Shown here: positions 21,849 to 44,613 of the stretch, in pieces
How the letters are laid out: each line of letters opens with the position of its first letter
Position numbering within the stretch: the stretch's first letter is position 1
NCBI GenBank assembly: GCA_016212825.1
Contig: JACRDS010000068.1
Location: 1-44,613, forward strand
DNA length: 44,613 nucleotides
Reading direction: 5' to 3'
Source of the DNA: Elusimicrobiota bacterium
GTDB taxonomy: Bacteria; Elusimicrobiota; Elusimicrobia; UBA1565; UBA9628
Made by a program: the position numbers and the translations under genes
Notes under the pieces: generated by a model
What the model saw: only the letters and a program-made list of their open reading frames with translations
Told to the model about the DNA's origin: nothing
Database searches by the model: none

Positions 21849-24458
21849 ATGAAAACGGCCGCCAGCCGCTTCCTCATCATTTTCTGCCTGAGCGTCCAGC
21901 CCGTGTGGGCCGCCAACCCCATCGCCGAGACCCAGAAGCCCGGTTCCTCGAACGCCAGCGGACTGACGGGCGGCGGTCCCTCCACCGGAGGCAACAACAA
22001 TCTGGGCTCAAATTCGCTCCAGCCTCAGCAGTCCATCAACATGAGCGGCACGCTGGGCGGCTCGGTCTCCCCCGCGCCCACGGTGGGAGTGAACAAGACG
22101 GTGACCGCGGCGCCGGTCGCGCCAGGTTCCGTCGTGGCCCCGCAGGCCGACCTCACCGAGACCCCGGTCTCCAAGACCCAGACCCCCGCGGCCCAGCCTG
22201 TCGTCGAGAAGGTCGGCGTGCGGACTCCTGCCCCCATCCTTCCCGGGGAAGGAGAACTCCTGCCCGAAAAGGACGGCAGGCCCACGCCCGCCGCTGCGGG
22301 CAAGAGCCTGCAGTCCGGGGTCATGTCCATCCAGCAGGGCGCGGCCGCCGAGGCGGCGGGCATGGGGGAGGGCGCGGTGCAGCAGGCCCTCGACAAGATC
22401 TTCGACGCTTCGCAGGCTTCCCAGGCCTCCGGCCTCATCGGCATCCCCGGCTCCCTCTCGCCGGTGCAGGACAAGATCAAGAAGACCGTGGCCCTGGCCA
22501 ACACCTCCGCGCCGCGCAACGCGCCGGACCTCTATGTCTCGGCCATCAAGGCCGCCGAGGACTCTTTCCCGGCCCAGGTCGCGGGCGAGGTCAAGCTCGC
22601 GGTGCTCGGCTATGCCGCGCGCAAGGCCGCCACCGCGCTCCAGGACCTGGCCAACGAAGCGTACCGGTCCGCGGGCTCGGGCGAGGTCAAGGAGGTGCGC
22701 AAGGCCTTCGCCTCCATGGACAAGTGGGAGAAGCTGCTGGCCCGGCCTGGAGAACCCCTGGTGGCCAACCGGGACCGCCTGGAGGCGGACGTGGAGCGCG
22801 TCCTGGAAGAGGGGACCCGCGCCGCCTCCAAGGGGACGACCTTCCCCGCGCCCCGCATCTGGTTCGCGCGCGTCGGCAGCTCCTTCAACGCCGTCCTGCC
22901 CTCGGCTTCGGTCGCCTCCCTCCCCCTCGGGCTGGCGGAGTCGCTGGCGCTCAAGGACGCGCTGGCTCCGGCGCCCTTCTATCAGCAGGCGCTGCTGTCC
23001 TACCAGGCCCGGCCGACGCTGGCCAACGGCTTCAAGCTCGTGTATCGGGCGCACCGCGGCGCCGGCCGCTCGGCCGTGGGCAGCTCTTTCGCCGCCGCCT
23101 CCTACGGCGCCAGGTCCCTCCTGGCGCGGTTCTGGCACGCGCTCAAGGACCTGGCCCTGCGCCTGCTGGGCCGCGCGCCGGACGCGGCCATCGGCCGCGG
23201 CTTCACGGTGGACGCCGCGCCCGCGCCCACGGCGCGGGCCGAGACGGTCTCCTTCTCCGGGGCGCACCTGCGTCTGGCCTCGGCCGAGGTCTCCCTGCCG
23301 TCCTGGGGCCTGAGCCTGGAGGCCCTGCACGCCCTGCAGACCGAACACGCCCTGGCCCTGGCCCTGCTCTCCCGCGAGACCCCTCTGGACCTGCAGGCCG
23401 CGCGCGCCGTGTTCGGTCTGGCTGCGGCCATGGCCGCCAACCACGAGGCGATCACGGGCGAGGGTTCCGCCGCGGATGTCCCGCGCCGCCTCTCCGTCCG
23501 CTTCGAAGCCCTGGCGCGCGAGGAGGGGCTCGGGCCCCGGTCGCGGCTCACCGCGGCCATGCTCCACCTCCTCTCCGACCTGGAGGGCGGCAGTCTCAGG
23601 CAGTGGCTCGACCGGGTCGTGGAGAGCGCGCAGGAGCGCGTGCTGGGCCTATCGGGGAGCCTGCGCGCCAACCGCTGGCTCTCCCAGCCGGGCGGCAAGG
23701 ACGCGGCCCTCTTCGCCCTGACGGACTTGGGCGCGGGGGCGCCGGCCTCCAAGGGGCGATTCCTCGGCGCGGGCCTGCGCGCCGCGGCCAGGCTGTTCCT
23801 CGATGCGGGCCCTGCGCCGCAGGGCTCCTTCGCGGTCAAAGACGACGTGGTCCTGGGCCGCTGGAGCGGGGCGCAGGGCAGCGGCAAGGTCCTGGCCGTG
23901 CTGGCCCCGGCGGCGCTCGGCGGCGGCATCCGCATCCTCTTCGAGCATCCTTCGGACGTCGGCGCGGCCGCGCGCCTCCTCTCTGGCCTCGGTTTCTCGG
24001 TGGAGACCCGGGGCCGCGCCCTTTCCGCGAGCCTGGCCGCCGAGGCCTCGGACGCGGGCGGGACGGCACTCTCCGGCATCCTGTCCCGGGTCGTGCTCGG
24101 TTTGCAGACGGGCCGCGAACCCGGGCCCGCGCTCTCCGGCCCGGCGCGCGGCGAGGCGTCCTCGTCCGTGCGCAAGCTGGTCTCGGACCTGGAGAGCCCG
24201 CAGGCCGCGGCCGTGGCCGGGGTCCTGCAGGCGCAGGCGCCGGCTTCCCTGGTCTACGCCTTCATCGGTCGGGTCGAGGGGCTCTGGGCTCAGAGTTCGC
24301 GTCTGGTCCTCGACGACGGCAGGATCCTCTCGGCCTATGCGCTCCGTGACCCGTCCACCGGACTCATCACCGCGGCCCGGGCCGAACTCTCCCGTCCGGG
24401 AGCCAAGCCTCGGACCGTCGGCGCTTCCGAGCTCGCCGTCCTGCTCAAGGGCGAATGA
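21849..24458 (+). CDS. large exported protein of unknown function
   Basis: An 869-residue protein beginning with a signal peptide (FLIIFCLSVQPVWA, cleavage near 21). Next comes a low-complexity Ser/Gly/Pro/Thr-rich stretch to about 160, a KIFDAS motif at 183-188, a mixed helical region (190-450), and a long Ala/Leu-rich region. Near the C-terminus, GGGIRILFEHPSDVG followed by LLSGLGFSVETRGRALSASL resembles, weakly, the C-terminal domain of PEP/pyruvate-binding proteins in which a GFxVExxGDxVxA pattern recurs. That would fit the PEP-synthase-like protein encoded next, whose ATG overlaps this stop by 4 bp. Beyond that I recognise nothing. The start at 21849 is chosen because the signal peptide begins there. 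Confidence 0.7.
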   Translation: MKTAASRFLIIFCLSVQPVWAANPIAETQKPGSSNASGLTGGGPSTGGNNNLGSNSLQPQQSINMSGTLGGSVSPAPTVGVNKTVTAAPVAPGSVVAPQADLTETPVSKTQTPAAQPVVEKVGVRTPAPILPGEGELLPEKDGRPTPAAAGKSLQSGVMSIQQGAAAEAAGMGEGAVQQALDKIFDASQASQASGLIGIPGSLSPVQDKIKKTVALANTSAPRNAPDLYVSAIKAAEDSFPAQVAGEVKLAVLGYAARKAATALQDLANEAYRSAGSGEVKEVRKAFASMDKWEKLLARPGEPLVANRDRLEADVERVLEEGTRAASKGTTFPAPRIWFARVGSSFNAVLPSASVASLPLGLAESLALKDALAPAPFYQQALLSYQARPTLANGFKLVYRAHRGAGRSAVGSSFAAASYGARSLLARFWHALKDLALRLLGRAPDAAIGRGFTVDAAPAPTARAETVSFSGAHLRLASAEVSLPSWGLSLEALHALQTEHALALALLSRETPLDLQAARAVFGLAAAMAANHEAITGEGSAADVPRRLSVRFEALAREEGLGPRSRLTAAMLHLLSDLEGGSLRQWLDRVVESAQERVLGLSGSLRANRWLSQPGGKDAALFALTDLGAGAPASKGRFLGAGLRAAARLFLDAGPAPQGSFAVKDDVVLGRWSGAQGSGKVLAVLAPAALGGGIRILFEHPSDVGAAARLLSGLGFSVETRGRALSASLAAEASDAGGTALSGILSRVVLGLQTGREPGPALSGPARGEASSSVRKLVSDLESPQAAAVAGVLQAQAPASLVYAFIGRVEGLWAQSSRLVLDDGRILSAYALRDPSTGLITAARAELSRPGAKPRTVGASELAVLLKGE

Positions 24459-26248
24459 TCCCGGCTTGGGCTCTCCTCCTGGGAGCCGTCTGCGTCCGGG
24501 CCGCCGAGAGCCCGGCCCTGCTGCCCGCGGCGGCGCTGAGCCCGGGCACGGGCCGTCCCGTCACCGCGCGCATCACCTATGACCGCGGCCGGGCCAAGGA
24601 GGGCGGCGCCATCCTGGTCCTGCCCGGGTTCTCCGATTCCGACGCGGCCGTGGCGCGGCTGGCCGAGGCCCTGATCCTGGGTTCGGGCGGCGCGGGCGGC
24701 CGCGGCGCCGCGTTCGCGCGCGGCCGCCGCATCCCGGCCGTGGCCCTGGAGTCCGCCGTCTGGGCGGACGGGGTCCTCGAGGCCCGGGCGCCGGTCCTGG
24801 GCCGGCCGCAGAGCCAGGATGGCGTGTCCTTCCAGGTGGCGGAGAAGACCGTGCCCGTGCGGCTGCGGGAGGGCGACGTGGTCACCGTCGACCCGGTCCA
24901 GGGGACGGTGGCCCTGTCCGCGCCCGAGGACGCGGAGTCCGACCTGGCCGCGGCCGAGGCCCTGCGCGCCTACGACGGACTGCGCGACGGCCAGGCCCTC
25001 CGGCATTGGTGGGCGGCGCGCGCCGGCGCCGACGCGCGGGCGGGCGTCGCGGCGGCGGCGGGGCTGGCCGCGCGTGTCGCGGACGGCGGCGTCCGGGCGG
25101 ACGACTTCTCGGCCTTCAGCCGCGCCGTGGCGGCCGGGCTGCCGCCGGCGCTCCGGAAGCGGCTCGCCGAAGAGCAGCGCCGGGTCCTCGGGGAGGCGGC
25201 CGCGCAAGCCCAGCGCTCCCTGCGCCAGGAGCTGGGCTCGGTCCGGGAGGCCGCGACCGCCCTAGCCGTGGAGCGCATCCTGGCCCGCGCCCAGACGCGC
25301 TGGGAGGGGCTGCAGGCCCTGGCCGCGGCTCTGTCGGAGAAATCCCGGCTGCGCGGCTGCGCGGCGCTCTGGCAGGAGCTCTCCCGGGCCGCCGCCCAGC
25401 GGCGCCAGGTTCTTTCTTCCGCCGCCGTCTCCGACCCCCTGACTGCCGCGGCAGCGGCCGCCGGAGCGGAGATCCCCCCCCGTGCCGCCTTCGGGGAGGT
25501 GGAGTGGCGCCTTTTCCTGGCCGAGGGGCGGCTGGATGCTCCCCTGGCCCGCATCCTGGACGATGCCTCCCTGGACCTGCGCCGGCGCTCCGCGCGCCTG
25601 CGGTCCCTGCTCCTGGAGCGCGGCCTGCCGGAGGGTTCCGAGTTGGGGAGGCGCATCCTGGGGAATCTCCCCCCTGCGCAGAGCTACTCCGTCGCGGGGG
25701 CTTACGAGGTCATCCCGGATGTCCCGGCCGCCGGCGTTCTGGGCGCGGTGTTCCGGGCCTGGGCCGCGGGCTTCGACCCGGGACCTCTGGGCGCGCGCAA
25801 GCGCGCGGCCCAAAGCGGGCTCCCGGCGCTGTTCGCTTCAAGCGTGGATGTGACCGCTCTTCCCCAGGCAGAGGTTTCGGGCACGGTCTTCAGCCGGGAG
25901 CCGGCCGCCGGCCGGCGCGAGCGTCTGTTGGTCGCGGCCGCGAAGCCGGGCGGGGCCGCGCAGGAGACCGTCCTCGAGAACCGGACCGGCCGAGAACTGC
26001 GCCCCGCGGGAGCCGGCAGGCTTCTGGAGGCCCGGGACCTGGCCGTCCTGGCCCGGGCGGCGCGCAGCCTCGACGACCACGAGGGCCGCGGCGTGGAGCT
26101 CGAGTTCTGCAAAGCGGCCGGGAAGCTCTATCTGCTGGGCTCGCGGCCCATCGCGGGCCTGGACGAGGAGCCGGCCCGCGCGGCGCCCTTCACGGTCGAG
26201 GTCCCGGCCTCGGCCACGGTGGCGCCGGTCCAGGCCTTGCGGCGCTAA
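24455..26248 (+). CDS. exported, rearranged PEP-synthase-like protein without catalytic His
   Basis: A 597-residue protein with a short hydrophobic export signal (1-16, IPAWALLLGAVCVRA). Residues about 45-155 look like the swivelling PEP-utilising domain (GGAILVLPGFSD ... FARGRRIPAVALES ... LREGDVVTVDPVQGTVAL). Where the family has the phospho-His (TSHAA...IPAV spacing) this protein has Arg83. Residues about 455-567 look like the end of the PEP-synthase ATP-grasp domain (VDVTALPQAEVSGTVFSREP ... GVELEF ... GKLYLLGSRPI). The order His-domain then ATP-grasp is reversed relative to PEP synthase, and the helical region between is unassigned. A binding or scaffold role is more likely than catalysis, though this is inferred. 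It is coupled to the upstream gene (ATGA). Confidence 0.65.
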   Translation: MIPAWALLLGAVCVRAAESPALLPAAALSPGTGRPVTARITYDRGRAKEGGAILVLPGFSDSDAAVARLAEALILGSGGAGGRGAAFARGRRIPAVALESAVWADGVLEARAPVLGRPQSQDGVSFQVAEKTVPVRLREGDVVTVDPVQGTVALSAPEDAESDLAAAEALRAYDGLRDGQALRHWWAARAGADARAGVAAAAGLAARVADGGVRADDFSAFSRAVAAGLPPALRKRLAEEQRRVLGEAAAQAQRSLRQELGSVREAATALAVERILARAQTRWEGLQALAAALSEKSRLRGCAALWQELSRAAAQRRQVLSSAAVSDPLTAAAAAAGAEIPPRAAFGEVEWRLFLAEGRLDAPLARILDDASLDLRRRSARLRSLLLERGLPEGSELGRRILGNLPPAQSYSVAGAYEVIPDVPAAGVLGAVFRAWAAGFDPGPLGARKRAAQSGLPALFASSVDVTALPQAEVSGTVFSREPAAGRRERLLVAAAKPGGAAQETVLENRTGRELRPAGAGRLLEARDLAVLARAARSLDDHEGRGVELEFCKAAGKLYLLGSRPIAGLDEEPARAAPFTVEVPASATVAPVQALRR

Positions 26249-32899: not shown

Positions 32900-34279
32900 T
32901 CAGTCCCGCTTGCGGGCGTTGAGGGTCTTGAGGCGGGATTCGACCAGGGCGCGGGTCTGGGCAGACGGCCCCACTTCGAGGGCCTTGGCGAAGAACTTGT
33001 GCGCGAAAGTCTCGTCTTCCTGGAGCAGGCACTCTCCCATCCCCGCATAGAGGTCCGCCACTGAGTCGTCGCGCATCCCCAGGGCGGCGGCGAACTTGAG
33101 GCCGTCCATGTAGTAGGACTTGGCCTTCTCGAGCCGCCCCTCCTTGAAGGCGATGAAGCCCATCCTCTCGTAGTAGACGATCATGCGGCGGTCCTCGGGC
33201 CCCATGAGGCCCGCGGCCGTGGCCAGCTCCGCCTTGGCCGACAGGAAGTCGCCGGCCGAGATGGACTTGAAAGCCGCGGCGAAGCGCTCCTCCACCGTGA
33301 CCCGCTGCGGGATCGCCATCTCGCGCACCAGCTCGCCCCGGAGCGCCACGGGCCGGTCCTCGGTCTCGGAGCCCCAGCGGAAGGTGAGGCTGATGCGGTG
33401 GGCGATGCCCAGCGCCGCGAAGGGGACGAAGGCGTAGTCCACGGCCAGGCTGCGCCAGTTCACGCCCAGGCCGCCCGTGATGCCGATGTCCGTGTCGTTG
33501 CGCGTGGTGAAGCCCGCGCGCAGCGCGACGAGGTGGGAGAGGAGGGTCTCCACGCCCACGCCTATGCGCAGCTTGTCCGTGCGCACCTTGGAGAGGTCGA
33601 AGGCGAAGGTGTTATCCGTGCCCTTGAGCGTGCAGCGGTAGGCCGCGCCCGCGCGCACGGCGGAGGGCAGCTTCTCCTTGGTGCTCACGTAGCGCACCTC
33701 GGGCCCCACGTTCAGGACCGCGGCGCCTAGGGAGAGGCCGGGCCGCTCCTTGATCTTGGCCAGGACCCCGGCGTCGAAGGCGTAGCCGTCGGCCGAGACC
33801 TTGTCTATGGTCTCGCGCAGGTACTTGGCGCCGCCGCCCAGGGCGAGGCGGCCGTCGTAGAACGAGCGGCCGTAGCCCGCGCCCAGGGCCAGGTCGCTGA
33901 TCCCGAAGCTGCCCAGGGTCCCGTCCGGGTTGGCCAAGGTGGTGCGCGGGATGTTGCTGAAATCGAGGTAGTTGAGGTTGACCCCGAAGCCCTGCTTGAA
34001 GGCGAAGGCGGCGTAGTCCTGGGTGAGGCCCTGGACGTACTGGTTGTGCATGAAGGTGGCCTCGTGCGCGCCCACCAGGCCCAGGCCGGCCGGGTTGTAG
34101 AGCAGGGCGTTGGCGTCCGTGGCCAGGGCCGTGTAGGCTCCGCCCAGGCCCACGGCGCGGGCGTTGGCGTCGAGGAGCAGGAAGTCGAAGGACTCGGCTC
34201 CGGCCGCGGTGTCCGCCGCGGCGGGCCGGGCCAGGGCCCCCGCCAGCGCGCAGACCAACGCCGCTCTGAGTATCTTCAT
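32900..34279 (-). CDS. PorV/UPF0164-like outer-membrane protein with TPR tail
   Basis: A 459-residue protein with signal peptide (1-22, AALVCALAGALARPAAA) and an FadL/PorV-like barrel start, FLLLDANARAVGLGGAYTAL, then ANALLYNPAGLG, the hallmark of the PorV/UPF0164 family. Strands continue to about residue 310. Residues 330-455 form TPR-like helices (LSAKAELATAAGLM, KSYYMDGLKFAAALG, AHKFFAKALEVGP). PorV is the outer-membrane shuttle that binds C-terminal domains of type IX secretion cargo. The gene is directly downstream of, and overlaps by 4 bp (ATGA), a giant protein ending in such a domain, which supports that role here. The TPR tail is an addition compared with classical PorV. Confidence 0.82.
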   Translation of the reverse strand: MKILRAALVCALAGALARPAAADTAAGAESFDFLLLDANARAVGLGGAYTALATDANALLYNPAGLGLVGAHEATFMHNQYVQGLTQDYAAFAFKQGFGVNLNYLDFSNIPRTTLANPDGTLGSFGISDLALGAGYGRSFYDGRLALGGGAKYLRETIDKVSADGYAFDAGVLAKIKERPGLSLGAAVLNVGPEVRYVSTKEKLPSAVRAGAAYRCTLKGTDNTFAFDLSKVRTDKLRIGVGVETLLSHLVALRAGFTTRNDTDIGITGGLGVNWRSLAVDYAFVPFAALGIAHRISLTFRWGSETEDRPVALRGELVREMAIPQRVTVEERFAAAFKSISAGDFLSAKAELATAAGLMGPEDRRMIVYYERMGFIAFKEGRLEKAKSYYMDGLKFAAALGMRDDSVADLYAGMGECLLQEDETFAHKFFAKALEVGPSAQTRALVESRLKTLNARKRD

Positions 34280-37200
34280 CTGATGACAGCCAGCTTCTTG
34301 ACCACGCTCTTATTGCCGGGCGAGGAGATGACGGCGAAATAGCCTCCCGAGGCCACTCCCCTGCCGTCGGAGTTCGCCGCGTCCCACTGGATCTTTCCGG
34401 TGGTGCAGGTGGTGGTGTCGAACTGCGCCACCGGGCGGCCGCTCAAGGTGTAGATCCTGATGCTCACCGCCTGCGGCAGGTTGTCGAAGATGATCCCTGA
34501 TGTCGGGTCGCCCGCGGAATAGGGCTTGCCCTCGTTCGGGTCCGCGCCGTTGGGCTTGTATGGGACAGGGTAGACCCTCACGCGGCTGAGGTCCGGGGCC
34601 GCCACGCCCGCGCCGTTGATGACCGCGAATATGCTGAAGTGCGGCGTGGCGCAGGTGATGGTGCGGTTGTTGGTGTCTACGGAGAGGGTCTGCAGGGCCG
34701 ACCACTGGCCCATGACCGGGTCCAGGGAGTGGATCTGCAATCCGCGAGGATCCCCGGCTCCCTCCGGATAGGAGAGGGTCAGGCTGGCGTTGAGCCCGCC
34801 GGCGAGGAAGTGCGTGCCGTCGGCGAAGTCGATCTGCACCGCCGAACCCACGAAGAAGCCGCCGGCGGGCGGGCCGGTCGAGATGGTGGGATTGCTCACC
34901 ATGGTCACGGTCACGGTCGAGCCGCCCAGGGCCCCGGCGGGCAGGAGGACCTTGACCGAGGGGTCGTCGAGCGCGGCGCCGGCCGAGACGATGGTGTTGG
35001 GGACGGCGTCGTCGACCGACTGCTGCTTCTCGACCTTGCCGCTCACCACGTTCTCCGTGATGTCCGCGGTGACGGGATCGACGATGATGGTGATGGCCGA
35101 GGGCGCGGTGTCGGAGCTGCCCGCCACGTTGACCGCCACGGCGCGCAGGTCGTAGCTGCCCGCGGGCCAGCCCGTGACGTCGACGTGGATGAAGTAGGGC
35201 GAATCCAGGTCGGGGTTGGGGTGGTTGATCTCCGCGGCGGTCATGTCGGCCCAGGACGAGGTCCCGGTCGGCCGCGACTGGAAGGAGATCTGCGAGACCT
35301 GGTTCGGCACTCCCGCCGCCAGTTCGGCCATCACCGTGATGCGGTTGCCGCGGATCCTCTTGCCTGAATCCGGCGTCTTTATGAAGGCCCGCACGTCGGC
35401 CAAGGTCCCGGTGGAGCCCGACATGGCGAAGACGCCGTTGGTCTCCTCCACGCCGCAGCGGTGCTTGGCGCGCAGGGCGAAGGTGTAGGCCGCGCTGGAG
35501 ACCAGGGCCCCGGTGGTCCAGGAGGTCTCGGTCGAGGTGAACACGGCCAAAGGCGCGGCGTAGCTCACCGCGCCCGTACCGTTGTCATAGTAGAGCCGGT
35601 ACTGCGTGATGCCTTCGGTCACCGACGGCACCCAGGACAGGGTGATGCGGTTGCCTGTCACTGGCTCCGCGGTCAGAGAGTTGGCCGCGGCCGGAGTGGA
35701 TGCCATGGTCCGGAACCAGACCTCGGAATCGAAGGGGCTGGCCACGTCCACGGCGTTGCGGTTGCGCACCCGGTAGTAGTAGCTGGTGCAGCCGAGCAGG
35801 TTGGGGTCGACCATGCTCAGCGTCGCGCTGCTGAAGATGGCGGTGAAGGCGGCGTCGTCCGTGGAGCGCTGCACCTCGGCCAGCGTGGCGACCGGGTTGG
35901 TGCCGAGGTTCCAGGAGATGGTGGCGCTGGTCGCCCAGACGCCGGAATAGGCGGTGCCTGTGGGCGGCGCGGCCCAGGTGTAGGCCGTGGCCGCGGCCGA
36001 GAGCGGCCCTTGGCCGATCGCGTTGACTCCGGCATAGACCGCGCCGTAGGCGCGGTTGGGCAGGAGCGCGGTCTGCACGTAGGTCAGGGTCGGGGTGCTG
36101 GCGATCAAGGAGGCCGTGTTCGTGGCCCGGTAGAGGCTGTAGGACTGGGCGTCGGCGACCGCGGTCCAGGTCCAGGAGATGGAGGAAACGCCCAGCGCCG
36201 CCGCCGAGAGCGTCCCGGCGGTCCCGGGCCCCAGAATCACGGACACGGGCACGCTGACGCTCAGCGTCCCGGAGCTGACCGTGAGCACGGCGGCACCGCT
36301 GGCCACGGCCGTGACCAGGCCGTTGGGGCTGACAGTCGCCACGCTGCTGCCCAGGCTGACGGACCACTGCAGGGCGTCGGAGAGGCCCAGAGCGCGGCTG
36401 GAGCCGCCCTCGAAGACCCCCGTGGCCGCGATCTGGGCGCTCTGGGGCGGGGTGAGAGTGACGCTGCTCTGGTTGAGGGTGAAGGAGGTCAGCGGCGCGG
36501 GCGGCAGCCCGAACTTGCCCACCCAGGTCTGTATGGCGGAGACCGGGGTGACGTAGCCGGCCACGTAGGCGAAGCGGGACACCGTGTCCACGGCCAGGGC
36601 CCAGCCGTCGTCGTTGCTCGCGCTGCCCGTGTCGTAGGTGGCGCTTGACAGGGCATTAAGGGAATAGTCGAAGACGCCGAGATAGACGCTGTTGCCCAAG
36701 GAGGTGGTGTGCCAGTTGCCACCCACGTAGACGCGAGTATCGGTGACCACCTCGGCAATCCCTTCGGAAGCGCCGTTACCGGAGCCGCGGAAGGAGGCCT
36801 GCTTGAGCAGGTTGAGGTTGAGGTCGTACTTGGCCAGCCAGAGGTCGCCGATGAGGCCCGTGTTGTTGATAATGCCGCTGACGAAGAGATATGTGTTGGT
36901 GGGATCGACCTTGGCGCTGTAGGCTTGGTCGCTGTTGCCGCCCGCGCCGGCCATTGAGGCGCTGGTCAGGAACACCAGGCTGCTGTTGAACTTGCCCACC
37001 CAGATGTCGCCTGAGGTGGCTGGGGCGGGCGCGACATAGCCCACCGCGTACAGGTTGCCCGAGCTGTCGCGGTCCAGACCGAGGGCCGCGTTGGCGTTGA
37101 AGCCGTTGAAGAAGGTGGTGCTCGATACCAGGGCCAGAGCCGAGGTGAACTGGGCCACCAGGATTTTGACGACGCCGCCCTGCAAGAGATATCCGGAGAT

Positions 37201-39375
37201 GAAGACGTCGCCGCTGGGCGCCACCACGAGTCCCATCCTGGGGGCCCCCGCGCCGCCGCCGGCCGGGCTGGGGAGGTTGTAGGTGCGGCTGCTGATGAGG
37301 TTGAGGCTGGGGTCGAACTTGCCCATCCACACCGCGTAGCCTATGCCCGGAGCGGAGGAGAGACCCGTCACGTAGACGTTGCCGGAGGCGTCGAGGGCCA
37401 CGCCCCGCGCGTCGTCGTCGGCCGCGCCGCTGCTGTTGAGGGTGACGCTCGAGATGGTGGCGAGGTTGGAGGCGTTGAGCTTCGAGACCCAGATGTCGAG
37501 GCCGTTGGAGGCCTGGCTGGTGTAGCCCACCACGTAGAGGCTGGAGCCAGAGCGCGCGATGGCCGAGGCCTGGTCCCAGGTGCCGTTGGTCAGGGCGGTG
37601 CTTACCGCGACCGGGATGCTGGCGCTAACCGCGCCCGAGCTGACGGTGAGCAGGGTCGCGCCTGCGCCCATGGCGGTGACCAAGCCGTTGGAGGTCGTGG
37701 CGGCCACGCTGCCGGAGGCCACGGACCAAGTCAGGCCGTCGGAAGGGCCCAAGGCCCGGCTGGAACTGTCGCTGAAGGTGCCGTTGGCCGTGAGCTGGAC
37801 GCTCTGGCCCAGGATGAGCGTCGCGCTGCTTTGGCTGAGCGAGATCAAGGTCAGGGTGGGCGCGGCGAACTGGTACTTGGCCAGATAGATCTGGTAGGGG
37901 CCGGACGGGGTGATGAAGCCGGCGAGGTAGGCGGTGCGGGTCTGGGTGTCCACGTCGAGACCGTAGGCGTAGTTGATGCCCGCGCCGCCGGTGACGATGG
38001 CGGCGCTGGAGACCATGTTGAGGCTGTAGTCGAGCTCGGCCACGTAGATCTTGCCGTCGGCGGCGGCGACGTTCCAGGTGCCGCTGACGTAGACCCGGGT
38101 GTCGCTGACCACGGTGTCGAAGGCGATGGAGCCGCCGGTGCCCGTGCCGCGGAAGGAGGCCTGGGCCAGGAGGTTGAGGCCGAGGCTGTACTTGGCCACC
38201 CAGAGGTCGCCGATGGCGCCCGTGTTGTTCTTGTTGCCGCTGACGAAGAGGAAGCTGCTGGTGGGGTCGACCTTGGCGCTGTAGGACTGGTCCGTGTTGC
38301 CGCCCGCGCCGGCGACCGTGGCGGAGGTGACGAAGGCGAGGCTGCTGTTGAACTTGCCCACCCAGATGTCGTTGGAGGTGGCGGGGGCGGGCGGGACCGA
38401 GCCCACGGCGTAGAGGTTGCCGGAGGCGTCAACGTCGAGGCCGAAGCCGATGTTGGCGTTGTAGCCGTTGTAGAAGGTGGTGCTGGAGACGAAGGCCAAA
38501 GCCGGGGTGAACTGGGCCAGGAGGATCTTGAAGACGCCGCCGACCGGGATGTAATCGACGGCGAAGATGTTGCCGCCCGGGGCCACGACGAGGCCGGCCT
38601 TGGGCGTGCCGGCTCCGGCCGCTGGGGTGGGGATGGGATAGGTGGCGCTGCTGACCATGGTGAGGGCCGAGTCGAACTTGCCCAGCCAGACCACGGGCCC
38701 CAGGCCGGCGGCGGAGGAGCGGCCCAGCACGTAGAGGTTGCCGGAGGCGTCGAAGGCCGCGGCCTTGGCCTCGTCATCCCCCCCGGCGCTGCCGTTGAGC
38801 AGCATGCTGGCGGTCACGGCAAGGTCGGAGGCGTTGAGCTTGGCGACCCAGAGGTCGAGGCCGCGGCTGCCCTGGCTGGAGGCGCCCACGGCATAGAGGC
38901 TGGCGCCGCGGCGGGCGATGTCGATGGCCTGGTCCTGGGCGCCGGCGGGCAGAGCGGGCGTCACGACCAGGGGGGCCGACGCGTTGACCGCGCCCGAGCT
39001 GACGGTGAGCAGGGTCGCGCCGGAGGCCCAGGCCGTGGCCAGGCCGTTGGACGTGGTGGTGGCCACGCTGCTGGAGGCCACGGACCAGGTCAAGCCGTCG
39101 GAAGGACCCAGGACGCGAGCGGATAGGTCGCTGAAGGTGCCGTTGGCCGTGAATTGGACGCTTTGACCCGGTAGGAAGGAAGAGGTGCTCGGCACCAGCG
39201 AGATGGAGGCCAGCGTGGGCGCTGCGATCTGGTACTTGGCCAGATAGATCTGGTAGGGGCCGGACGGGGTGATGAAGCCGGCCAGATAGGCGGTGCGGGT
39301 CTGGGTGTCCATGTCGAGGCCGTAGGCGTAGTTGATGCCCGCGCCGCCGGTGACGATGGCGGCGCTGGAGAGCAT
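34276..39375 (-). CDS. giant repeat surface protein, C-terminal part with T9SS-like sorting domain
   Basis: The downstream part (1,699 residues) of a single roughly 2,500-residue frame interrupted by a TAA at 39387-39385; it continues in the same frame as 39385-41793. It holds the rest of repeat unit 2 and units 3 and 4, each a YxVG/LWVAKY-type propeller section plus a BIG2-like Ig domain (LTWSVASxSVATTTSNGLxT, VLTVSSGxV). FN3-like domains follow (36220-35400), then a beta region with VLLPAGALGGSTVTVTM, and a C-terminal sorting domain: VRVYPVPYKPN, IRIYTLSGRPVAQFD, GVASGGYFAVIS, VVKKLAVIR. The last is the T9SS type A / FlgD-Ig plan. If translated alone from the ATG at 39375 this part lacks a signal peptide and could not be exported. 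Confidence 0.8.
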   Translation of the reverse strand: MLSSAAIVTGGAGINYAYGLDMDTQTRTAYLAGFITPSGPYQIYLAKYQIAAPTLASISLVPSTSSFLPGQSVQFTANGTFSDLSARVLGPSDGLTWSVASSSVATTTSNGLATAWASGATLLTVSSGAVNASAPLVVTPALPAGAQDQAIDIARRGASLYAVGASSQGSRGLDLWVAKLNASDLAVTASMLLNGSAGGDDEAKAAAFDASGNLYVLGRSSAAGLGPVVWLGKFDSALTMVSSATYPIPTPAAGAGTPKAGLVVAPGGNIFAVDYIPVGGVFKILLAQFTPALAFVSSTTFYNGYNANIGFGLDVDASGNLYAVGSVPPAPATSNDIWVGKFNSSLAFVTSATVAGAGGNTDQSYSAKVDPTSSFLFVSGNKNNTGAIGDLWVAKYSLGLNLLAQASFRGTGTGGSIAFDTVVSDTRVYVSGTWNVAAADGKIYVAELDYSLNMVSSAAIVTGGAGINYAYGLDVDTQTRTAYLAGFITPSGPYQIYLAKYQFAAPTLTLISLSQSSATLILGQSVQLTANGTFSDSSSRALGPSDGLTWSVASGSVAATTSNGLVTAMGAGATLLTVSSGAVSASIPVAVSTALTNGTWDQASAIARSGSSLYVVGYTSQASNGLDIWVSKLNASNLATISSVTLNSSGAADDDARGVALDASGNVYVTGLSSAPGIGYAVWMGKFDPSLNLISSRTYNLPSPAGGGAGAPRMGLVVAPSGDVFISGYLLQGGVVKILVAQFTSALALVSSTTFFNGFNANAALGLDRDSSGNLYAVGYVAPAPATSGDIWVGKFNSSLVFLTSASMAGAGGNSDQAYSAKVDPTNTYLFVSGIINNTGLIGDLWLAKYDLNLNLLKQASFRGSGNGASEGIAEVVTDTRVYVGGNWHTTSLGNSVYLGVFDYSLNALSSATYDTGSASNDDGWALAVDTVSRFAYVAGYVTPVSAIQTWVGKFGLPPAPLTSFTLNQSSVTLTPPQSAQIAATGVFEGGSSRALGLSDALQWSVSLGSSVATVSPNGLVTAVASGAAVLTVSSGTLSVSVPVSVILGPGTAGTLSAAALGVSSISWTWTAVADAQSYSLYRATNTASLIASTPTLTYVQTALLPNRAYGAVYAGVNAIGQGPLSAAATAYTWAAPPTGTAYSGVWATSATISWNLGTNPVATLAEVQRSTDDAAFTAIFSSATLSMVDPNLLGCTSYYYRVRNRNAVDVASPFDSEVWFRTMASTPAAANSLTAEPVTGNRITLSWVPSVTEGITQYRLYYDNGTGAVSYAAPLAVFTSTETSWTTGALVSSAAYTFALRAKHRCGVEETNGVFAMSGSTGTLADVRAFIKTPDSGKRIRGNRITVMAELAAGVPNQVSQISFQSRPTGTSSWADMTAAEINHPNPDLDSPYFIHVDVTGWPAGSYDLRAVAVNVAGSSDTAPSAITIIVDPVTADITENVVSGKVEKQQSVDDAVPNTIVSAGAALDDPSVKVLLPAGALGGSTVTVTMVSNPTISTGPPAGGFFVGSAVQIDFADGTHFLAGGLNASLTLSYPEGAGDPRGLQIHSLDPVMGQWSALQTLSVDTNNRTITCATPHFSIFAVINGAGVAAPDLSRVRVYPVPYKPNGADPNEGKPYSAGDPTSGIIFDNLPQAVSIRIYTLSGRPVAQFDTTTCTTGKIQWDAANSDGRGVASGGYFAVISSPGNKSVVKKLAVIR
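36216..37575 (-). repeat. 1.36-kb tandem repeat, unit 4 (most diverged)
   Basis: Fourth copy, starting at WDQASAI and ending with the last BIG2-like domain (SVPVSVILGPG). The same anchor motif lies 1,362 bp from that of unit 3. The end position is approximate. Confidence 0.65.
37576..38934 (-). repeat. 1.36-kb tandem repeat, unit 3
   Basis: Third copy, 1,359 bp, starting at QDQAIDI. The region around 38392-38440 matches 39751-39799 almost base for base. Confidence 0.8.
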
Positions 39376-40293
39376 GTTGATGGATTAGTCGAGCTCGGCC
39401 ACGAAGATCTTGCCGTCGGCGGCCGCGACGTTCCAGGTGCCGCTGACATAGACCCGCGTGTCGCTGACCACGTTGTCGAAGGCGATGGAGCCGCCGGTGC
39501 CGGTGCCGCGGAAGTTGCCTTGGGCCAGCAGGTGCAGGGAGAGGTCGTACTTGCCCACCCAGAGGTCGCCGATGAGGCCGGTGTTGTTCTTGTTGCCCAC
39601 GGCGAAGAGGTAGGAGCCCGAGGGATCCACCTTGACCGAGTAGGCCTGGTCGCTGTTGCCCCCGGCCCCGGCGATCGTGGTGCTGGTGATGAAGGCGAGG
39701 CTGCTGTTGAACTTCCCTATCCAGGTGTCGTTGGAGGTGGCGGGGGCGGGCGGGACCGAGCCCACGGCGTAGAGGTTGCCGGAGGCGTCGACGTCGAGGC
39801 GGAAGCCGATGTTGGCGCTGTAGCCGTTGAAGAAGGTGGCGCTGGAGACGAAGGCCAGGGCCGGGGTGAACTGGGCGATGAGAATCTTGAAGACGCCGCC
39901 GACCGGGATGTAGTCGACGGCGTAGAGGTTCCCTCCTGGAGCGACCACGAGGCCGGCGGTGGGCGTGCCGGCTCCGGCCGCCGGGGTGGGAATGGGATAG
40001 GTGACGCTGCTGATGAAATTGAGGGCCGAGTCGAACTTGCCCAGCCAGAGCACGGGGCCCAGGCCGGCGGCGGAGGAGCGGCCCACGGTGTAGACGTTGC
40101 CCGAGGCATCGAGAGCCACGGCCACGGCCTCGTCGTCGCCATCGGCGCTGCCGTTCATGAGGCGGCTGGCGGCGACGCTCATGTCGGAGGCGTTGAGCTT
40201 GGCGACCCAGAGGTCGAGGCCGCGGCTGCCCTGGCTGGAGGCGCCCACGGCGTAGAGGCTGGCGCCGCGGCGGACGATGTCGACGGCTTCGTC
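38935..40293 (-). repeat. 1.36-kb tandem repeat, unit 2
   Basis: Second copy, 1,359 bp, starting at the HDEAVDI motif. It is nearly identical to unit 3 over long DNA stretches and contains the nonsense codon at 39387-39385. Confidence 0.8.
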
Positions 40294-41793
40294 ATGGGAG
40301 CCGCCGGCGGGCAGGGCGGGCGTCACGACCAGGGGGGCCGACGCGTTGACCGCGCCCGAGCTGACGGTGAGCAGGGCCGCTCCGGAGGCCCAGGCTGTGG
40401 CCAGGCCGTTGGATGTGGTGGTGGCCACGCTGCTGGTGGCCACGGACCAGGTCAGGCCGTCTGAGGGACCTAAGGCCCGGCTGGAGCTGTCGCTGAAGGT
40501 GCCGCTGGCCGTGAACTGGACGCTCTGGCCCGGTATGAAGGTGGAGGTGCTGGGTATAAGGGAGATGCTGGTGAGGGTGGGCGCGGCCAGCCCGAACTTC
40601 CCCAGCCAGGCCTGCATGGGTCCGGCGGGGGTGACGAAGCCGGCAAGATAGACATTCGGCGGAGACATGGTGTCAACGGTGAGGCCGTAGGCGTAGTTGA
40701 TGCCCGTGCCGCCGGTGTCGATGGCGGCGCTGGAGATCATGTTGAGGCTGTAGTCGAGCTCGCCCACGAAAATCTTGTCGCCGGAGGCCGTGTTCCAGGT
40801 GCCGCTGACATAGATGCGGGTGTCGCTGACCACGTCGTCGAAGGCGATGGAGCCGCCCGTGCCCGTGCCGCGGAAGGAGGCCTGGGCCAGGAGGTTGAGG
40901 CCGAGGCTGTACTTGGCCACCCAGAGGTCGCCGATGAGGCCGGTGTTGTTCTTGTTGCCGCTGATGAAGAGGAAGCTGTCGGTGGGGTCGACCTTGGCGC
41001 TGTAAGACTGGTCCGTGTTGCCGCCCGCGCCAGCGACCGTGGCGCTGGCGATGAAAGCGAGGCTGCTGTTGAACTTGCCCACCCAGATGTCGTTGGAGGT
41101 GGCTGGGGCGGGCGGCACGGAGCCCACGGCGTAGAGGTTGCCCGAACTGTCGCAGTCCAGGCCGAAGCCGATGTTGGCGTTGTAGCCGTTGAAGAAGGTG
41201 GTGCTCGAGACCAGGGCCAGGGCCGGGGAGAATTGGGCCAGGAGGATCTTGTAGACGCCACCGGACAGGACCCAATCCACGGCGAAGATGTTGCCGCCGG
41301 GCGCCACGACCAAGCCGGCCTTGGGCGTGCCGTTGCCGGCGGAGGTGGTGGGGATGTTGTAGGTGGCGCTGCTGATGAGGTTAAGGGCAAGGTTGAATTT
41401 GCCCAGCCAGAGCACTGGGCCCAGTCCGGTGGCTGAAGAGCGGCCGACCACGTACACATTGCCGCCGCCGTCGAGGGCCACTGCCTTGGCCTCGTCGTCG
41501 CCCCCGGCGCTGCCGTTCAAGGTCATGCTGGATACCACACTCAAGTCCGAGTCATTGAACCTGCTGACCCAGATGTTAAGCCCCTGTGCGCCCTGGCTGG
41601 AGGAGCCCACGACGTAGAGCCTGGTATTGGAGCGGACTATGTCAGTAGCTTGGTCCTGGTTGCCCAGCGGGATAGTGGCGCTGCTGATGAAGTTCAATCC
41701 CGAAGCAGACGCAGGCTCGGACAGGAGTGTCGTGAGAAGGGGCGCTATGCAGGAAAGGAAGAGCGCGGCGGACTTCGGCGCGCGGCTCGGCAT
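39385..41793 (-). CDS. giant repeat surface protein, N-terminal part ending at an in-frame stop
   Basis: An 802-residue product with a signal peptide (SAALFLSCIAPLLTTLLS, mature end near PASASG at about 30). It contains all of repeat unit 1 and most of unit 2: propeller-like blades with DLWVAKYSLGLNLL, SGNLYAVGSVPPAPATSNDI and ASFRGTGTGGSIAFD, and a BIG2-like Ig domain. It ends KIFVAELD at a TAA (39387-39385) where the other copies read LDYSLNM, so one C-to-A change (TAC to TAA) explains the stop. Without the downstream part it lacks the sorting domain. A consensus promoter lies at 41941-41913, giving a leader of about 110 nt. I prefer the ATG at 41793 (signal peptide) to the GTG at 41826. 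Confidence 0.8.
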   Translation of the reverse strand: MPSRAPKSAALFLSCIAPLLTTLLSEPASASGLNFISSATIPLGNQDQATDIVRSNTRLYVVGSSSQGAQGLNIWVSRFNDSDLSVVSSMTLNGSAGGDDEAKAVALDGGGNVYVVGRSSATGLGPVLWLGKFNLALNLISSATYNIPTTSAGNGTPKAGLVVAPGGNIFAVDWVLSGGVYKILLAQFSPALALVSSTTFFNGYNANIGFGLDCDSSGNLYAVGSVPPAPATSNDIWVGKFNSSLAFIASATVAGAGGNTDQSYSAKVDPTDSFLFISGNKNNTGLIGDLWVAKYSLGLNLLAQASFRGTGTGGSIAFDDVVSDTRIYVSGTWNTASGDKIFVGELDYSLNMISSAAIDTGGTGINYAYGLTVDTMSPPNVYLAGFVTPAGPMQAWLGKFGLAAPTLTSISLIPSTSTFIPGQSVQFTASGTFSDSSSRALGPSDGLTWSVATSSVATTTSNGLATAWASGAALLTVSSGAVNASAPLVVTPALPAGGSHDEAVDIVRRGASLYAVGASSQGSRGLDLWVAKLNASDMSVAASRLMNGSADGDDEAVAVALDASGNVYTVGRSSAAGLGPVLWLGKFDSALNFISSVTYPIPTPAAGAGTPTAGLVVAPGGNLYAVDYIPVGGVFKILIAQFTPALAFVSSATFFNGYSANIGFRLDVDASGNLYAVGSVPPAPATSNDTWIGKFNSSLAFITSTTIAGAGGNSDQAYSVKVDPSGSYLFAVGNKNNTGLIGDLWVGKYDLSLHLLAQGNFRGTGTGGSIAFDNVVSDTRVYVSGTWNVAAADGKIFVAELD
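40294..41655 (-). repeat. 1.36-kb tandem repeat, unit 1
   Basis: First copy (in coding order) of the propeller plus BIG2 module, from the QDQATDI motif to the matching Asp codon of unit 2; 1,362 bp, a multiple of three. Confidence 0.8.
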
Positions 41794-41848
41794 CACAGCG
41801 GTTCGGCCTCCCGCTGACCGGCTCACTTTCGGCGTCCTAGATGAAGAG

Positions 41849-41941: not shown

Positions 41942-42099
41942 GACCCAATTCCGGCCTATGTCCCGGCCTGGCCGCGGCATCCGAATGGCCTAGGCTCCGG
42001 CGGCCTGATGGCCCAAGCTCTTGTGGGCCATAATACACGGCGCCCCTAGGACCATCGTATCTATTGGAAATAAAGATGAGATGTTATTCTCTCTGCACT

Positions 42100-44613
42100 A
42101 TGCAGAAGAAAAACAACTCCCAGCTCGCCGCGACCATCCTCCCCCTGGCCGTCATCCTCCTGGCCCCCTCCGGCGCCTTCGCCGGCGCGGTCAAGACCGG
42201 GCAAGCCGTTGCCGCGCCCGGCGCTTCCGGGTTGACCGGCAACATCCTGAGCCGTCCCGGCTCCGCCGGCTCCGGCATCAGCACCCTGTCCAGCGGGCTG
42301 CAGTTGAACCTGAACTCGAGCCTCGCTGTCCCGGCGCCGGCCGCTCTCGGGCCGGCCGTCTCTCCCGTCGTCCCGATCCAGGCGGCCCCGGCCCTCGCCG
42401 CTCCCGCGGCTCTCGGCGCGGCCCCGGTCTTGCCCGCGCCCGACGCTCAGGCTCCGGCCGCGGTCCTGGCCGCTCCGGCGCAGGAGCAGTCCGGCGCCCT
42501 GGGCTCCGTGAAGGACGCGGTCCAGACCATCCAGGCCGACGAGGCCAAGAGCGGCGCCCCGGAGCAGGGCGGCGTCATCGGCAAGCTCTTCGACGGCGGC
42601 TCCAGAGCCGCCGTCCCTGGAGGCGATCGCCTTGCTCCGCTCGCCGGAAGGGACGGCTCGGCGGCCTCCTACCTGAGCCAGGCTCCCAAGACCATCTTCT
42701 CCGAGGCCATCGCGATCTGGAAGGACGCGGGCGCGCCCAGCGAGACCGACCTGCAGGTCAAGCAGGACAACGGAGGGCTCTCCGACGTGGGCGCCGAGCG
42801 CGACCTCATCGAGGACGCGCAGGTCCAGACCGAGCCGGTCAAGGTCGAGCTGCCCGAGCCCGCGTACGGCTTGGACAAGGTCGGCCTGCAGCGCTGGGTC
42901 GTGACCGGCGGCGTCAAGTACGCGGCTTTGGTCAAGGGCGGCGTGTTCTGGGTGGACCAGACCGGCAACGTGTTCCTCTACCGCCGCGCCTCGGCCGAGA
43001 CCGTGCGCATCGTGGTGGCCCCCGGCAAGCTCGGGCCCGTGACCGTGAGCGAGGACGGCAAGAACGTCTACGCGGTGGTCGACGGCCGTTTGCAGCGCTG
43101 GGAGATCAAGGACCGGGAACTCTCGGCCAAGTCGGTCAAGTCCGAGAGCCTCGACGGCGCCAAGATCACGGGCTTGGAGCCCCTCAACGCCGAGGACGCG
43201 GGCCGGGGCGACGGCGCGCAGATCCTCATGGCGGGCAAGCGCTTCTACTGGGCCAAGTCCAAGATCGTGTTCCAGAGCGAGGGCGCCGAGCAGATCACCA
43301 AGAACGGCTCTTTGCGCTCCGGCCTCACCCTCCTCGGCCGTTCCCTCTATACGGAAAAGGCCGCCGGCGGGACCCGAGTCTGGCTCAAGCCTTACTTCGG
43401 CAGCGAGACCAAGCTCGAGGACCTCGGCACCCTCCCCTTCGAGATCAAGGCCATCGTCGCGGGCGACGCGCGCGGCACCTACTTCGCCGCAACGGCGGAA
43501 GGCATCGTGGAGTGGGACGTCAAGACCCGGCGCTACCGGCTCTTCCCGGTCAACGGCCTGGAAGCCGCGGGACAGGTCCTGGGCCTGGACGTGGACCCCG
43601 AAGGCCGCGTGCTGGTCTCGGGCAGCCACGGCCTGACCCAGGTCGAGCTCGCGCCGGCCCGGGAGTTCCTCTCCAGCAAGTCCGCCGAGGTCCGGCTCTG
43701 GTCCCAGTCCAACCCCATGTACATAAAGGATGGGGCCCTGCATATCGGCGACTTCTCCTTCCCCCTCGCCAGGAAGGCCTTGGCCCCCAAGTCCGGCCTG
43801 GCCCGCTTGGGCGCGGCGCTCAAGAGCCTCTTCGGCGGCAAGAGCGCGGTCCCGGCCGAGGTCTCTGACATGGGCATCAGCGAGAAGGAGTGGCAGGCCT
43901 TGAACCTGCCCACCAACAAGCGGCTCATCTACGACACCCTCAAGGGCTTCTCCCTGAGCCAGCACATGCTCTACATCGGCGAGACCGGCGGCGGCAAGAC
44001 CTGGATCGCCGAGCGCATCGCCAAACTCACGGGCAACGAGCTCTGGATGGTCTCCATGAACGAGTACACGCGCAACAAGGACCTCATCGCGCGGGAGACC
44101 TTCGGCGAGGAAGGCAAGAACAAGACCGGGCTGACCATGTCCACCGTGCTGCGCTGGATGACCGAGGGCGGCATCCTGCTGCTCGACGAGATGCACAAGC
44201 CGCTGGAAGGCATCGCGGTCTTGAACAACATCCTGCAGAACGGCGAGTACCGCATGCCCGACGGCCGCATCATCAAGTACGACAAGAAGAAGTCCTGGGT
44301 CATCGGCACCATGAACCCGGTCAAGCCTCCCTACAAGGGCGAGCCTCCTTCCGGCGAGCTCTCCTCTCGCTTCGGCATGACCTTGGAGGTCAAGTACCTG
44401 CCCGCCGACGAGGAAGCCGCCCTGCTGAACATCTTCTACTCCAAGGTGCCCCGCACCGTGCTCGACAAGCTCGTGGCCATCGCCAACGACCTGCGCAAGG
44501 TGTACCCGGACATCCTGCCCCTGCCCATCGCGCCCCGCACGCTCATGCACATCGTGGAGCACGCGGCCCGGTACCCCAACGACAGCATCGTGGACATCTT
44601 CCGCAAGACCTAC
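42100..44613 (+). CDS. exported AAA+ ATPase with propeller-like domain (3'-incomplete)
   Basis: 838 residues are visible and the frame runs off the window. Order: signal peptide 1-28 (LPLAVILLAPSGAFA, then G), a Pro/Ala-rich stretch (about 70-150), KLFDGGS (162-168), a beta-propeller-like region (about 265-535; GGVKYAALVKGGVFWVDQ, NVYAVVDGRLQRWEI, GTYFAATAEGIVEWDV), and a MoxR/dynein-type AAA+ module with Walker A GETGGGKT (627-634), Walker B ILLLDE (Asp696-Glu697), sensor-1 Asn739 in GTMNP, and an arginine in LSSRFG. All key ATPase residues are intact. The odd point is the combination of a signal peptide with an ATP-dependent motor. Such ATPases usually work with a VWA-domain partner, which may lie downstream outside the window. 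Confidence 0.85.
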   Translation, partial: MQKKNNSQLAATILPLAVILLAPSGAFAGAVKTGQAVAAPGASGLTGNILSRPGSAGSGISTLSSGLQLNLNSSLAVPAPAALGPAVSPVVPIQAAPALAAPAALGAAPVLPAPDAQAPAAVLAAPAQEQSGALGSVKDAVQTIQADEAKSGAPEQGGVIGKLFDGGSRAAVPGGDRLAPLAGRDGSAASYLSQAPKTIFSEAIAIWKDAGAPSETDLQVKQDNGGLSDVGAERDLIEDAQVQTEPVKVELPEPAYGLDKVGLQRWVVTGGVKYAALVKGGVFWVDQTGNVFLYRRASAETVRIVVAPGKLGPVTVSEDGKNVYAVVDGRLQRWEIKDRELSAKSVKSESLDGAKITGLEPLNAEDAGRGDGAQILMAGKRFYWAKSKIVFQSEGAEQITKNGSLRSGLTLLGRSLYTEKAAGGTRVWLKPYFGSETKLEDLGTLPFEIKAIVAGDARGTYFAATAEGIVEWDVKTRRYRLFPVNGLEAAGQVLGLDVDPEGRVLVSGSHGLTQVELAPAREFLSSKSAEVRLWSQSNPMYIKDGALHIGDFSFPLARKALAPKSGLARLGAALKSLFGGKSAVPAEVSDMGISEKEWQALNLPTNKRLIYDTLKGFSLSQHMLYIGETGGGKTWIAERIAKLTGNELWMVSMNEYTRNKDLIARETFGEEGKNKTGLTMSTVLRWMTEGGILLLDEMHKPLEGIAVLNNILQNGEYRMPDGRIIKYDKKKSWVIGTMNPVKPPYKGEPPSGELSSRFGMTLEVKYLPADEEAALLNIFYSKVPRTVLDKLVAIANDLRKVYPDILPLPIAPRTLMHIVEHAARYPNDSIVDIFRKTY

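Follow-up and report, generated by a model that had tools for sequence, protein, structure and literature searches.

AAA+ motors are treated as limited to compartments that contain ATP, which the periplasm of bacteria is taken not to do. The NorQ/NorD, CbbQ/CbbO, and CobS/CobT pairs, each an AAA_5 core with an adjacent or fused VWA partner, are cytoplasmic and carry neither signal peptides nor propellers. Midasin (Rea1), a eukaryotic nuclear/nucleolar protein, carries six AAA modules on a single chain. For NorQ/NorD, the VWA protein plugs the pore of the AAA hexamer and transmits ATP-driven movement to the target (PMC9976466). In the β-propeller-containing MoxR-vWA ternary conflict systems, it is the VWA component that carries the fused propeller (Kaur et al. 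2020, PMC7159879). In the open-access literature, no description was found of exported or periplasmic AAA+ ATPases, nor of Elusimicrobiota AAA/VWA proteins. Here we analyse a gene from an Elusimicrobiota MAG (3.56 Mb, 186 contigs) in which a signal peptide and a propeller precede an AAA+ core. The window, i.e., the whole stretch of DNA analysed, is the entire contig C16 of 44,613 nucleotides.

Leader, propeller, and AAA core of the window protein

A single frame is open on the + strand from the ATG at 42100 to the last base of the window at 44613 without a stop (42100..44613; 838 codons), as the original prediction had it; the window ends where contig C16 ends, and the gene is thus truncated by the assembly. 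Upstream, the frame stays open to a TTG at 42064, with an additional in-frame ATG at 42076. The translation begins with a predicted Sec/SPI-type signal peptide (residues 1-28, 42100..42183; MQKKNNSQLAATILPLAVILLAPSGAFA, followed by G), in which a Lys-rich n-region and a hydrophobic core lead to an AFA/G cleavage motif, with neither a lipobox Cys nor any further TM segment in the protein. An Ala/Pro-rich linker follows (residues 29-155, 42184..42564; A+P 38%), disordered in the AlphaFold2 model; both the signal peptide and the spacer previously proposed are present in the sequence. The leader is closed by KLFDGGS (residues 162-168, 42583..42603), the F-D-G of which is invariant in the family alignment. 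It had been raised that the first 60 or so codons might not be translated; however, the leader is open in all homologues, the frame has a GC3 of 0.94, and dN/dS across residues 1-60 is 0.38-0.74, so that this stretch behaves as coding. For the signal peptide alone, a slice of 23-26 codons and as such too short, dN/dS spans 0.24-1.23. The conservation of the leader also led us to reject a start codon located after it.

The region thought to be propeller-like was modelled by AlphaFold2 as a WD40-type β-propeller (residues about 205-530, 42712..43689), mostly at pLDDT 65-90 with dips, and Foldseek matched it to RACK1-like WD40 propellers (E about 1e-9), in agreement with that reading. Downstream lies the AAA_5 ATPase core (Pfam PF07728; residues 622-758, 43963..44373), detected at E 4.9e-18 with a score of 65.9 bits, where the cut-off is 22. 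Its Walker A (GETGGGKT, residues 627-634, 43978..44001), Walker B (ILLLDE, residues 692-697, 44173..44190), and sensor-1 (GTMNP, residues 736-740, 44305..44319) motifs, all on the + strand like the features above, were each found intact as claimed. The motor had also been called complete, which holds for the AAA core; beyond it, the window protein is cut within the start of an α-helical lid (44380..44613, +), whereas homologues run approximately 20-50 residues further, or, in one homologue class, approximately 800 residues further into HExxH and VWA domains.

Of the label "AAA_5/MoxR-type", the first half stood. Membership in MoxR proper was rejected because AAA_3 (PF07726) gave no match at E<=1 in the window protein, which is also not among the AAA_3 loci of its own genome; a PDB sequence search instead returned midasin first (1.2e-23), followed by NtrC/PspF-type regulators, ClpA, and CobS. 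The AAA part of the AlphaFold2 model is of low confidence and was therefore not used to derive the geometry of a ring.

Tandem paralogues and a HExxH-VWA partner

When 84,980 species, each represented by a single genome, were scanned by a search that reaches close relatives only, relatives were detected solely in Elusimicrobia MAGs. Among 341 Elusimicrobiota genomes, close relatives are present in 7 besides the window's own, distributed over three families of one order, with remote matches (31-36%) in three further genomes. Rather than a solitary case, the architecture represents one copy of a tandem family within a wider set of AAA+ proteins with signal peptides. Genome G230 encodes two copies in a row and one separate copy, G183 encodes three in a row, and GWA2_69_24 (G187) has at least two tandem copies. 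The array of the window's own genome is not assembled; assemblies break in tandem arrays, which accounts for the position at which the window ends. Most copies contain one AAA module, with two in the fused G183 and remote relatives, and three in G007. GWA2_69_24 also contains a 262-codon AAA frame (L013:9965-10753) that begins inside the AAA, just before Walker A, and lacks both propeller and signal peptide; it is either a fragment or a stand-alone AAA module. In G230, part of the AAA lid is missing from copy 1 (L034:13790-13860), at a point that coincides with the contig end; this is probably an assembly collapse.

Linked paralogues share 95-97% identity across their AAA cassettes but only 28-34% across their propellers. 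Synonymous divergence (dS) between linked copies is 0.12-0.23, compared to 0.19-0.59 between like-placed copies of different genomes. As the values for linked copies lie at or below those for orthologues, the comparison points to gene conversion acting on the AAA cassette. Such near-identical AAA modules beside diverged propellers would fit a shared ring interface equipped with divergent adaptors.

A VWA-domain partner downstream had been suggested, and one was found in several arrangements. In the window's own genome, contig C11 opens inside a second AAA copy of 80% identity (L007:1-2799, 932 codons), which overlaps the window protein from 44380 on and continues through the lid, a HExxH domain (HETWH), a charged low-complexity tether rich in Lys, Gln, Gly, and Asp, and a VWA domain with DTSGSM before reaching a stop. 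We infer that the AAA gene on C16 and this VWA gene on a separate contig are linked. In relatives, AAA, HExxH, and VWA occupy one frame at L008, and the AAA module is cut by the contig start ahead of HExxH-VWA at L014 and L039, as it is at L007; either the fused AAA-HExxH-VWA form or its cut 3' part is present in G214, G213, G183, G187, and G190. The AAA and HExxH-VWA genes adjoin in G228. There, a ten-A run marks the frame change between them (L036:8490-8520) and the alternate frame reads through, which may reflect one protein, a sequencing error, programmed slippage, or phase variation. In the remote system of G225 (L045), separate signal peptides are present on an AAA_5 x2-ankyrin protein and on the VWA protein next to it.

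Close-family members keep both HExxH and, downstream of it, EDPRVN, whereas HExxH is lost in many remote relatives. Searches for a zincin fold in this putative gluzincin-type metallopeptidase domain gave no significant match: the best Foldseek match of an AlphaFold2 model built from two sequences was at E 1.3, a broad HExxH profile found no relative in the PDB, and a CobT match reached only E 0.05. The VWA partner resembles CobT_C/CoxE, and for the VWA domain of a relative the nearest match is the MIDAS domain of midasin (1.1e-5). The only cysteines of the array-terminal protein in the window's own genome form a CxxC..CC pattern (L007:460-530), a possible zinc ribbon.

Evidence for export from the cytoplasm

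Three explanations had originally been offered for an ATPase behind a hydrophobic N-terminus, namely an uncleaved anchor that leaves the ATPase in the cytoplasm, activity in an unusual compartment, or activation before export; the second is the best supported. Signal peptides, assigned by eye and from hydropathy, are present in 12/12 complete close-family N-termini from 7 genomes, even though their sequences differ, and this also answers the proposal that homologues might begin after the propeller. A unit in G183 that has no signal peptide of its own is fused downstream of another unit. By hydropathy, no second hydrophobic or membrane segment was found in family members.

Cysteine content follows the same pattern. 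Proteins without a signal peptide encoded at the same loci contain 12.0 Cys per 1,000 residues, and other signal-peptide proteins contain 4.9, compared to 0.41 in the family (3 in 7,363 mature residues), with 8/10 members having none and the window protein having 0 in 838 residues. The HExxH-VWA proteins and remote giant relatives range from 0 to 4.3 per 1,000, while the L045 pair in G225 contains 0 Cys (AAA_5 x2-ankyrin) and 2 Cys (VWA). For a canonical MoxR protein of the window's own genome (L094), which has no signal peptide, the value is 12.2. Export of the family from the cytoplasm is thus well supported, by inference from sequence features.

The family is accompanied by other AAA+ proteins with signal peptides. 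In a sister genus, several genomes encode Lon proteins of this type (L187-L191, L193, and L194) that retain Walker A as well as the catalytic Ser (DGPSA) and Lys (IGGLKQK) motifs. Taken more broadly, signal-peptide, nearly Cys-free Lon proteins in related genomes comprise L187-L194, L211, and L184/L173; in the last of these, from G228, Met replaces the first Lys of an IGGLKEK motif. Across the same 400-residue core, the Lon proteins with signal peptides contain 0.19 Cys per 1,000 compared to 8.35 in canonical Lon (Mann-Whitney p=2e-6, an optimistic value since the sequences are related). MoxR-type (L118/L179), Lon-like (L174), and ClpB-like (L165) proteins with signal peptides, likewise nearly Cys-free, are single occurrences in relatives, and no exported Hsp70 was seen.

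The FDG motif after the linker is common to the window family, the AAA and VWA proteins of L045, and the Lon proteins L187-L194. In a set chosen around these families, it is present in 16/27 signal-peptide Ala/Pro-rich proteins compared to 5/158 others. A role as a genome-wide sorting signal was considered and rejected, as the motif is not widespread in a 237-kb sample of the window's own genome; we therefore report it only for the exported machines, which amount to a few related families, and in which it could possibly serve as a sorting or processing element.

Two further observations concern other loci in the window. At 24455-26248, a protein with a signal peptide matches PEP-utilizer and PPDK_N (ATP-grasp) at 1.3e-9, and its PDB matches include short ones to PEP synthase; here, too, a signal peptide precedes an ATP-handling fold that is normally cytosolic. 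At 32900-41826 (-), very large repeat proteins (Big_2, SBBP) adjoin a gene with a UPF0164 match and a sub-cut-off PorV match; the C-terminus of the second repeat protein resembles a type IX/FlgD-like tail.

Proposed mechanism, alternatives, and relation to described systems

We consider it probable, at roughly 60%, that the window protein belongs, as one of several paralogues, to an AAA+/VWA remodelling machine specific to Elusimicrobiota, exported in Sec-type fashion and acting outside the cytoplasm. In such a machine, (i) the AAA paralogues would leave the cytoplasm by means of their Sec-type signal peptides, (ii) the propeller, varying between paralogues, would bind a substrate or partner and select partners, and (iii) the AAA_5 modules would assemble into a ring, possibly of mixed paralogues. 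(iv) The last gene of the array would supply the gluzincin-like HExxH domain, the flexible tether, and the MIDAS-type VWA domain. (v) The VWA domain would dock on the ring, by analogy with NorD on NorQ or the MIDAS domain on midasin, with the former providing the docking precedent for the proposed ring and HExxH-VWA protein (PMC9976466). (vi) ATP hydrolysis would then drive the remodelling of an envelope or extracellular protein.

Whether the motor runs on ATP is where this proposal meets its strongest rival, according to which the proteins are exported but not ATP-driven. The AAA ring would then serve as a scaffold, either structural or ATP-binding, whose nucleotide travels with it or is missing, and the activity would lie in the propeller, VWA, and HExxH domains. 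Established knowledge that ATP is not expected outside the cytoplasm speaks for such a scaffold, as does the loss of HExxH in many remote relatives. Broken Walker A motifs also occur in exported relatives: Lys is replaced by Arg in the Cys-free Lon-like protein L176 of the window's own genome (G000:C61, 2111-5596 -) and in its equally Cys-free same-genus relative L175, and the first AAA module of L045 has a degenerate GDMGTGKN. Several remote giant relatives pair one degenerate AAA module with one intact module. Within the close family, however, GETGGGKT, LLLDE/LVLDE, and TMNP are intact in every copy covering them, and the AAA region has the lowest dN/dS of the protein (0.17-0.21). Relatives among the exported Lon proteins likewise keep Walker A along with the catalytic Ser and Lys motifs. 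We hence regard the scaffold as unlikely, albeit deserving of serious attention. Export is well supported, while, with an intact and constrained AAA module on one side and broken relatives on the other, we rate ATP use outside the cytoplasm as no more than likely.

The ATP problem would be solved if the proteins were secreted or delivered into another cell, either prey or host, with ATP, to act there as remodelling or proteolytic effectors. A survey of the phylum reports many huge proteins and links them to host association (PMC11573180), and the remote Elusimicrobiota relatives are giant multi-repeat proteins. In these giants (1.8-6.5 thousand residues; L078-L082, L084, L089, and L046), AAA_5 and VWA occur together with a HExxH domain that is either degenerate or intact, and several also have NHL/WD40 propellers. 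Yet those relatives for which a record title exists come from groundwater and lake samples, as environmental MAGs with no known hosts, and the extreme loss of Cys fits an oxidising or extracellular site as opposed to another cytoplasm, leaving delivery a rather improbable reading.

The uncleaved N-terminal anchor, with the ATPase facing the cytoplasm in the manner of canonical MoxR or CbbQ, would place the AAA_5 module where its canonical counterparts and ATP are located. This we judge very improbable, given that positive charges before the hydrophobic stretch predict an N-in/C-out orientation, an AXA-type cleavage motif precedes a Pro-rich linker, a second membrane segment is absent by hydropathy, and Cys content is 10-30 fold below that of cytosolic proteins, in contrast to the canonical MoxR of the same genome with its normal Cys and lack of signal peptide. 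An artefact of metagenome assembly or a wrong start codon is scarcely credible, for although the gene sits at a contig end in a repeat and copy 1 of G230 has its probable collapse inside the AAA module, the same uninterrupted architecture recurs in several independent MAGs of three families.

The proposed exported remodelling machine may also belong to something broader, and we tentatively suggest, as a possibility with the odds somewhat against it, that ATP-powered remodelling and proteolysis occur outside the cytoplasm in Elusimicrobiota through midasin-like AAA/VWA arrays, Lon, MoxR-type, and ClpB-like proteins, several of which have the leader of signal peptide, linker, and FDG motif in common. 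If true, this would call for an ATP source in that compartment and would change how envelope proteostasis is seen in this phylum, of which very few members have been cultured. A conserved, Cys-poor, signal-peptide AAA+ family with intact motifs makes the rule of no periplasmic ATP directly testable.

Set against described systems, the family has several partial counterparts. With MoxR proper (AAA_3), e.g., RavA, it shares the broad AAA+ clade and the VWA partnership, but it differs in the absence of an AAA_3 match, and the genome encodes its canonical MoxR proteins separately. The MoxR-vWA conflict systems likewise associate propeller, AAA, and VWA modules (PMC7159879); here, however, the propeller is on the AAA protein and the system is predicted to be exported. 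An AAA_5 core with an adjacent or fused VWA partner is the arrangement of NorQ/NorD, CbbQ/CbbO, and CobS/CobT. CobS is among the PDB matches of the window AAA module, and there is a weak match to the CbbQ_C lid (E 0.02-0.14; at best 15.6 bits against a cut-off of 20.6). The Elusimicrobiota VWA partner nonetheless adds a HExxH domain, and the cytoplasmic location typical of NorQ, CbbQ, and CobS is one that the family would not share. Midasin provides the closest AAA module by PDB search, and the likeness extends to the VWA domain noted above, to an AAA_lid_7 that lies above cut-off in one relative, L089, and slightly below it in another, L080, and to a charged tether leading to a C-terminal MIDAS VWA domain, these last elements being found in the array-terminal protein and relatives only and not in the window protein. 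Unlike the six modules of midasin, mostly one AAA module per chain is found here, and the family adds a signal peptide, a propeller, and a HExxH domain. The parts are of known classes (AAA_5, VWA, and WD40), and the exported AAA+/VWA combination predicted here has no counterpart in the open-access papers found.
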